Below, piece after piece: positions 1-48,578 of a DNA stretch of 64,000 nucleotides; positions within the stretch are counted from its first letter, which is position 1, and each line of letters starts with the position of its first letter. The translations under genes were made by a program, and so were the position numbers. The stretch lies in contig NC_090981.1 in the NCBI RefSeq assembly GCF_040807025.1, positions 40,713,817-40,777,816 of the forward strand, given 5' to 3'. This DNA comes from Struthio camelus. Taxonomy: Eukaryota; Chordata; Aves; Struthioniformes; Struthionidae. The notes under the pieces were generated by a model, which saw nothing but the letters and a program-made list of their open reading frames with translations, made no database searches and was not told the origin of the DNA.

Positions 1-184
1 TGAAGAGAGCAATTTCCAGTCTGAAAGACAAAATTGTTATGACTCGCTTAACAATTATCCTTTAATAGCAATAACTGTCGTCGTTATGGAGACTTGGCGG
101 GGTTTTTTTCCCCTGTGATTGCCTGCTTATTAAAAACTTTTGCCTACCTCTAGGCAAGTTTGGGGGGGGGGGGAGGAGGGCAAA
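1..184. other. Intergenic sequence upstream of MCCC2
   Basis: AT-rich non-coding sequence before the MCCC2 CpG island, ending in a run of 12 G (162-173). I see no coding exon or RNA gene here. In other amniotes the gene upstream of MCCC2 is BDP1, but no part of it is recognisable in this short stretch. Confidence 0.5.
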
Positions 185-350
185 AAAGCGGCTTGGTCCC
201 GGAGGGCCGCGGTGCAGGGTGCGGGCAGCAGGAGCAGGGGCTGGCCGGGGCCCCGGCCGCGGCCGCGTCCTCCGCCCGCGCGGCTCCCCCCGCCCGCTCC
301 CAGCGGCCGGTTTGCGCAGGCCCCCCGGCCTTGGCGTACCTCTCACCAGA

Positions 351-387
351 TTATATGTATAAATAACATATGTTCCTTCCTTTTCAG
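351..387 (+). promoter_or_regulatory. AT-rich island with TATA-like box and splice-acceptor-like site in the MCCC2 promoter
   Basis: A 20-bp AT-rich patch inside the CpG island contains TATAAATA at 358-365. It is followed by a pyrimidine tract ending in CAG (374-387), which looks like a 3' splice site. It could be a TATA box for a start near 390, or the acceptor of an alternative exon joined to an upstream non-coding exon. Neither use is proven. Confidence 0.35.
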
Positions 388-521
388 GGGCTGCTCCTGC
401 CCCGCGGCGGCGCCCGCCCGCGCTGTGCCCATTGGCTGCGGCGCGGGGAGTGGCGGCGGCGGCGGCGCTGCGGGCCGGGCCGGGCCGAGCCGGGGCGGCC
501 GCCGCCTCTCCGCTGGCCGCC

Positions 522-39337
<38,816 letters not shown>

Positions 39338-46598: not shown

Positions 46599-46910
46599 CA
46601 ATGCCGAGCTGAGCCGAGTCAAGCTGAGCCGAGCTGGGCCAGGCAATGCCAAGCCGAGCTGAGTCGAGCCAAGCCGGGCCGGGCCGGGCAATGCTGAGCT
46701 GTGCCGAGCTGAGCTGAGCCGAGCCGAGCTGGGCCCAGCAATGCTGAGCTGAGCTGAGCCGGGCCGGGCACTGCCGAGCCGGGCCGAGCTAAGCCAAGCT
46801 GGGGAATGCCGAGTCGAGCCGTGCTGAGCCGGGCCGGGCACTGCCGAGCCGGGCCGAGCTAAGCCAAGCCGGGCACTGCCGATCCGAGCCGGGCCGGGCG
46901 CTGCCGCGGC
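46599..46910. repeat. Degenerate GAGCY/GGGCY pentamer array upstream of CARTPT
   Basis: About 310 bp built almost entirely from pentamers of the type GAGCC, GAGCT, GGGCC, AAGCC, interrupted by CAATG and CACTG words. A higher-order repeat is visible: the 47-bp stretch from 46753 recurs from 46823, a 70-bp period. The composition resembles immunoglobulin switch-region pentamers. It ends about 90 bp before the CARTPT TATA box. The minus-strand frame rich in SARLGSARPGS is a repeat artefact. Confidence 0.9.
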
Positions 46911-47000: not shown

Positions 47001-47007
47001 TATAAAG
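47001..47007 (+). promoter_or_regulatory. CARTPT: TATA box of CARTPT
   Basis: TATAAAG in an otherwise GC-only context, 37 bp before the start codon. A normal TATA-to-start distance puts transcription initiation near 47026-47033, leaving a 5' UTR of only about 5-12 nt. Confidence 0.8.
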
Positions 47008-47037
47008 CGGCGGCGGCGGCGGCGGCGCTCCAGCACC

Positions 47038-47181
47038 ATGGAGAGCTGCCGGCCGCTGGCGCTGTGCGCCCTGGCCGCCGCCCTGCTGCTGGGCGCCCGC
47101 GGGCAGGGGCCGCCCGAGCCGCCGCGCCGCGCCCGCGACCTGAGCCCGGCCGGCGGCGGCGCCTCCCACGAGAAGGAGCTG
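47038..47181 (+). CDS. CARTPT: CARTPT exon 1 (residues 1-48)
   Basis: Encodes the signal peptide and N-terminal pro-region ending ASHEKEL. Donor CTG|GTGGGG. An RRAR motif at residues 30-33 is a possible extra convertase site. Confidence 0.93.
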
Positions 47182-47618
47182 GTGGGGCCGGGGGGGGCCG
47201 GGGGGAGGCGGCGGCGGGGCGGGAGCCCCCTGCGCGGGGAGCGCGCCCTGACGGGGTCTCGGGGTCTCTCGGCAGATCGAGGCGCTGCAGGAGGTGCTGG
47301 AGAAGCTGAAGAGCAAGCGGATCCCGCACTACGAGAAGAAGTTCGGGCAGGTCCCCATGGTGAGTGCCCGCCCCGGCCCCGGCCCCGGCCCCGGCCCCGG
47401 CCCCGGCCCCGGCCCCGGCCCCGGCCCCGGTCCCCGTCCGGCCCCCGGCCCCGTGCCCGGGCTGCGGCCGGGCCGGGGCGCCGCGCTCAGGGCCGTGTTG
47501 CTCCCGACAGTGCGACGCCGGGGAGCAGTGCGCCGTGAGGAAGGGGGCCCGCATCGGGAAGCTCTGCGACTGCCCCCGCGCCACTTCTTGCAACTCTTTC
47601 CTCCTCAAGTGCCTGTAG
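47038..47618 (+). CDS. CARTPT: Cocaine- and amphetamine-regulated transcript prepropeptide (three exons)
   Basis: Precursor of the secreted neuropeptide CART, which suppresses feeding and acts in reward and stress circuits. Exons 47038-47181, 47276-47359 and 47511-47618 join in phase to 111 residues plus TAG (human 116 as remembered). Residues 1-22 form a signal peptide with core [15 protein letters not shown] coiled acidic/basic pro-segment ([20 protein letters not shown]) leads to the dibasic site K62-R63, which releases the 48-residue CART peptide from Ile64. A second site, K69-K70, gives the shorter form. Six cysteines (77, 83, 95, 97, 103, 110) match the CART knot, and the sequence from GQVPM to the C-terminus is almost identical to mammals (Ala100 replaces Gly). 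The region between the signal peptide and SHEKEL is diverged and lacks the mammalian DIYSAVDD. Birds also have a second CART gene; the position after MCCC2 identifies this copy as the mammalian orthologue. Confidence 0.96.
47276..47359 (+). CDS. CARTPT: CARTPT exon 2 (residues 49-76)
   Basis: Encodes [20 protein letters not shown], then KKFGQVPM. Contains both dibasic cleavage sites. It starts after CTCTCGGCAG, and the donor is ATG|GTGAGT. Confidence 0.96.
47371..47430. repeat. (CCCCGG)10 hexanucleotide repeat in CARTPT intron 2
   Basis: Ten exact CCCCGG units (60 bp) fill much of the 151-bp intron 2 (47360-47510), with degenerate copies following. The minus strand is GGGGCC, the repeat unit expanded in human C9orf72. 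Open frames through it give runs of GP, PA and PR dipeptides, which are artefacts here unless translated without AUG. Confidence 0.95.
47511..47618 (+). CDS. CARTPT: CARTPT exon 3 (residues 77-111 and stop)
   Basis: Encodes [20 protein letters not shown], then [15 protein letters not shown] and TAG: all six cysteines of the mature peptide. Acceptor GCTCCCGACAG. Confidence 0.97.
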
Positions 47619-48572: not shown

Positions 48573-48578
48573 AATAAA
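48573..48578 (+). terminator. CARTPT: CARTPT poly(A) signal
   Basis: AATAAA followed by a GT-rich downstream stretch (TTGTTCTGATGACAGTGCTC), the expected cleavage arrangement. Confidence 0.7.

Follow-up and report, generated by a model that had tools for sequence, protein, structure and literature searches.

A (CCCCGG)10 array in the short last intron of the probable CARTPT gene of Struthio camelus is most probably an ordinary GC-rich microsatellite

Introduction

What does it mean that a bird neuropeptide gene carries, within an intron, an exact run of the hexanucleotide unit known from human C9orf72? The run studied here lies in a stretch of 64,000 nucleotides of Struthio camelus DNA on contig C40 of the assembly (hereafter the window), and on the opposite strand its unit reads GGGGCC. 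According to the C9orf72 literature, pathogenic alleles have 24-4000 units and the tract of the hg38 reference measures 62 bp by Table 1 coordinates (PMC8145836), while unaffected people have a mean of two units and at most 19 (PMC4668579). For CARTPT itself, no hexanucleotide repeat was mentioned in the titles or abstract openings of the literature matches listed. In this work, we analyzed the host gene, the array, the distribution of its unit in the genome, its length in the copies of the locus and its predicted influence on splicing.

Results

The host gene encodes a product of 111 aa in three coding exons, and the following features were located around it:

5237..39334, plus strand: MCCC2 exons, upstream of CARTPT on the same strand (probe: human MCCC2)
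47001..47006, plus strand: TATAAA box upstream of the ATG (sequence match)
47038..47181, plus strand: coding part of CARTPT exon 1, ATG at 47038 (gene model; Pfam CART)
47182..47275, plus strand: CARTPT intron 1, 94 bp, 86% GC, G-rich (gene model)
47276..47359, plus strand: CARTPT exon 2 (gene model; CART family search)
47360..47510, plus strand: CARTPT intron 2, 151 bp, GT-AG, 90% GC; on retention the exon-2 frame stays open (gene model)
47511..47618, plus strand: coding part of CARTPT exon 3 with the stop codon (gene model; match to CART structure 1hy9; family search)
48573..48578, plus strand: AATAAA, candidate polyadenylation signal (sequence match)

The product matches the Pfam CART domain with E=7.4e-39, and 39/41 residues match the CART structure 1hy9, a human chain. 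The MCCC2 exon at 30184-30303 has as its best PDB match 8j4z, the methylcrotonoyl-CoA carboxylase beta chain, and MCCC2 and CARTPT are neighbours in the human gene order too. Chicken CART1 is likewise reported to have 111 aa and to lie on chromosome Z (PMC4436185). The domain, the structure match, the length shared with chicken CART1 and the upstream MCCC2 together indicate that the window gene is most likely the CARTPT (CART1) orthologue, as had been proposed from the sequence letters. CART2 was also considered and was rejected on the match of the mature residues to 1hy9, the chicken CART2 peptide being described as only 59% identical to CART1 (PMC4436185). The gene had in addition been called neuronally expressed, which is part of the picture only, as chicken CART1 is reported to be made mainly in the anterior pituitary, with mRNA levels at least 60-fold those of the hypothalamus (PMC4436185).

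Two other repeats lie close to the gene. One is a GCCGA/GCTGA-type minisatellite of 294 bp (46603-46896, detected by TRF), directly upstream of the CARTPT promoter; the other is a (GCG)7 run at 47007-47027, between the TATA box and the ATG and perhaps in the 5' UTR. The (GCG)7 run and the sampled part of the minisatellite (46656-46896) are the same in both other copies of the gene, described below.

The repeat of intron 2 comprises an exact core and a longer imperfect array:

47371..47430, plus strand: exact tandem array (CCCCGG)10, GGGGCC on the minus strand (pattern match; chance control by resampling)
47370..47462, plus strand: the same array with an imperfect 3' extension, period 6, 15.3 copies, 87% matches (TRF)

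The core is uninterrupted, and its perfect period-6 run of 61 bp goes beyond chance: no such run exceeded 23 bp when the surrounding 1.5-kb GC-rich island was resampled 1000 times with Markov models of each order from 1 to 4. A reversed-pattern control was uninformative for this unit, because reversing CCCCGG only rotates the unit. The 500-bp flanks are of the CpG-island type (GC 0.81 and 0.67; CpG observed/expected 1.00 and 0.90). Much of the original prediction is borne out by these data, namely ten exact units, their position in a 151-bp intron 2, their identity with the C9orf72 unit and the presence of the C-rich strand in the sense pre-mRNA. The description of the intron as mostly ten exact units slightly overstates the case: the exact units cover 60 of the 151 bp (40%), and the imperfect array covers about 93. 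A G-quadruplex pattern was matched on the minus strand (47367-47433), and the C-rich CCCCGG unit is reported to form i-motifs and hairpins in vitro (PMC4668579); both are consistent with the formation of non-B DNA at the array.

We then counted the CCCCGG unit, and this unit alone, as overlapping exact placements over 1.45 Gb in 262 contigs. (CCCCGG)10 has 128 placements and (CCCCGG)4 has 1421. The placements listed for the former (100 of the 128) resolve into 20 arrays of 10-24 units, seven with exactly 10 units in the phase searched and 13 longer; the CART array on C40 must be in the remaining 28. Those listed for the latter (100, all on contig C1) correspond to 41 sites, three of them with at least 10 units. 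The longest array among those listed has 24 units and lies in CpG-rich DNA (C22:8750058-8750201). All 20 arrays, found in 19 stretches, one of which holds two, were examined, and each adjoins CpG-island-type DNA in at least one 500-bp flank (GC >0.55, CpG observed/expected >0.65). The same threshold was passed by 125/599 control positions in the same stretches, more than 2.5 kb from the arrays, by 61/580 in the window and by 37/360 in the four 10-kb stretches flanking it, although these control positions are not independent. The 20 arrays themselves amount to about 18 independent cases, since the C2 pair is adjacent and the C4 pair duplicated (C4:8.22 and 8.29 Mb; an 8.5-kb duplication, 99.6% identical, 75 kb apart, each copy with an equal (CCCCGG)10 array). 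As the unit is common beside CpG-island-like DNA, its occurrence does not set a neuropeptide gene apart, and the CART array is a member, at the shorter end, of the CpG-island microsatellite class of this genome.

The exon-wise search of the assembly recovered three gene copies of the CART family, one in the window and two on contig C41, 196 kb apart (60.04-60.11 Mb and 60.24-60.30 Mb); beyond these, the search yielded no further match at E<=0.001, an absence on which we put no weight. The first C41 copy matched the window without a difference in 10/10 pieces of 600 bp, sampled along 63.6 kb, and in a comparison of 1301 bases at the gene. In ten 600-bp pieces the second showed 17 mismatches and 2 gap letters (about 0.3% divergence where sampled), as might a second allele or a duplicate of very recent origin. 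At the gene it departs from the window in the array alone, by a single mismatch and a 12-base gap in the 1301 bases compared: where the window and the first C41 copy have 10 units, the second has 7 exact units followed by CCCCAG, and its intron 2 measures 139 bp. The guess that the array varies in length is supported by these near-identical copies of one assembly, which may be alleles, sex-chromosome copies or duplicates. The CCCCAG that ends the shorter array reflects a G-to-A change of the CpG type, by which intron 2 gains a new AG. As judged from sequence comparison, the three copies suggest sex-chromosome copies or duplicated haplotypes. C41 is probably the Z chromosome, because the C9orf72 gene of this animal lies on it (near 4.84 Mb) and CART1 is reported on the chicken Z (PMC4436185).

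The possible influence of the array on splicing was modelled with 0-40 units in a folded segment that spans exon 2, intron 2 and part of exon 3. For the 5' splice site the predicted mean unpaired fraction was 0.37-0.50 and for the 3' end it was 0.24-0.45, with small changes and no steady trend against unit number in this range; the predicted exposure of both sites peaked slightly at 9-12 units, a range that takes in the natural 10. A length-dependent hiding of the splice sites was rejected on these grounds. A special RNA fold of intron 2 was rejected as well, the intron folding no better than its shuffles (z -1.1, 26/200 at least as good). Intron 2 is the last coding intron of CARTPT, and its length of 151 bp puts exon 3 out of frame: if it were retained, the exon 2 frame would read (Pro-Gly)n, enter exon 3 in another frame and lose the cysteine-rich domain. 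The array is free of stop codons in every frame, which is trivial because it is GC-only, and its 6-bp units preserve the frame at any array length.

Discussion

Taken together, these results point towards a microsatellite of the GGGGCC/CCCCGG class that grew by slippage in a GC-rich CpG island and is nearly neutral at its present length, a reading to which we give a probability of about 85%. The array would have grown by replication slippage in a small intron of CART1 that was already 90% GC, and at this length it would have little or no effect on the gene, because neither splice site of the intron is lost and human C9orf72 tolerates unit counts of this size. This reading is favored by the 128 placements of (CCCCGG)10 and the CpG-island-type DNA next to all 20 arrays listed, and by the second C41 copy, which over about 1.3 kb differs in the array alone, being 12 bp shorter with one G-to-A change at a CpG. 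It also fits published repeat patterns: the GC-richest microsatellites of 53 birds are described as penta- and hexanucleotide repeats (PMC9951716), short tandem repeats as commonly located near CpG islands (PMC10027321), and the introns of avian GC-rich genes as filled with G-quadruplex-prone tandem repeats (PMC6792250).

The C9orf72 analogy drawn in the original prediction is weak. One reading would make the array a disease or fragile locus like C9orf72, in which a large expansion would give rise to toxic RNA and dipeptides. The shared unit, the poly-Pro-Gly that would be read in frame on intron retention and the different array lengths of the gene copies speak for it. However, ten units fall short of the pathogenic range, which starts at 24 in the cited account (PMC8145836), the lengths seen are 10 and 7+1, and the same genome holds longer tracts, reaching 24 units among the arrays listed; in addition, the gene is CARTPT and its sense strand carries CCCCGG, whereas the C9orf72 sense transcript carries the G-rich unit. 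On the features tested the CART array falls outside the expansion-disorder class, and we regard a disease locus as the least probable of all the readings. Scarcely more credible is an assembly artefact in the length or presence of the array. The region occurs three times in the assembly and the window equals the first C41 copy wherever sampled, which suggests duplicated haplotype sequence, and GC-rich repeats are reported to be hard to sequence (PMC6792250); yet the window is free of N, and the array is present in the divergent third copy too, where both its length and one of its bases differ.

A reading with somewhat more in its favor, though still unlikely, is that the array acts in cis on CART1, longer tracts slowing the splicing of intron 2 so that transcripts keeping the intron would lack the cysteine-rich domain and encode poly-Pro-Gly, with the unit number tuning CART output. 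In human C9orf72, the levels of the host intron (intron 1) are reported to rise with repeat length even in the normal range (PMC8031855), and for this reason a mild effect of the array on CARTPT intron 2 is possible. The open frame of the intron, its last place among the coding introns, the shift that its 151 bp impose on exon 3, the length difference between copies and the slight maximum of predicted splice-site exposure at 9-12 units are compatible with such a role. Against it stand the small and trendless range of that exposure, folding no better than that of shuffles, the triviality of an open frame in a GC-only array and the C-rich sense RNA, opposite to that of C9orf72. Its stronger form, a naturally polymorphic, sex-chromosome-linked splicing rheostat by which unit number would tune CART1 output in birds, is more doubtful still; if true, it would provide a natural non-human model of the action of normal-length GGGGCC/CCCCGG tracts in an appetite and pituitary hormone gene.

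Two of these observations count against the microsatellite reading that we prefer. One is that C9orf72 host-intron levels track length in the normal range (PMC8031855), by which "nearly neutral" may be too strong; the other is the slight maximum of predicted exposure around the natural ten units. The genome-wide distribution serves mostly as a warning: since so well-known a disease unit turns up repeatedly next to CpG-island-like DNA of this genome, finding it in a neuropeptide gene is little evidence by itself. Because two array lengths occur on otherwise identical flanks of about 1.3 kb in one assembly, the locus could be used, on a small scale, as a natural test of the effect, if any, of normal-length CCCCGG tracts on the splicing of a very short intron.

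Three known systems place the array. With the GGGGCC repeat of C9orf72 intron 1, as a human allele of the normal range, it has in common the hexanucleotide unit and an intronic site, and its ten units are close to the length of the hg38 tract (PMC8145836). The two differ in their strand relative to transcription, C-rich in the CARTPT sense, and in their position, a 151-bp last intron as opposed to a first intron, and the genes are unrelated. With the arrays at C22:8750058, C17:5286399 and C24:7279267 of its own genome it shares both the unit and the CpG-island-like setting, although these have 20-24 units and are longer. The tandem-repeat introns described for avian leptin, TNF-alpha, MRPL52, PCP2 and PET100 (PMC6792250) resemble it in lying in GC-rich genes and in being G-quadruplex-capable, whereas the CART array is much smaller, a perfect hexamer, and sits in a gene that is assembled. 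Among these, the GC-rich, G-quadruplex-prone tandem repeats of avian introns, as reported there, are the better family for the CART array.
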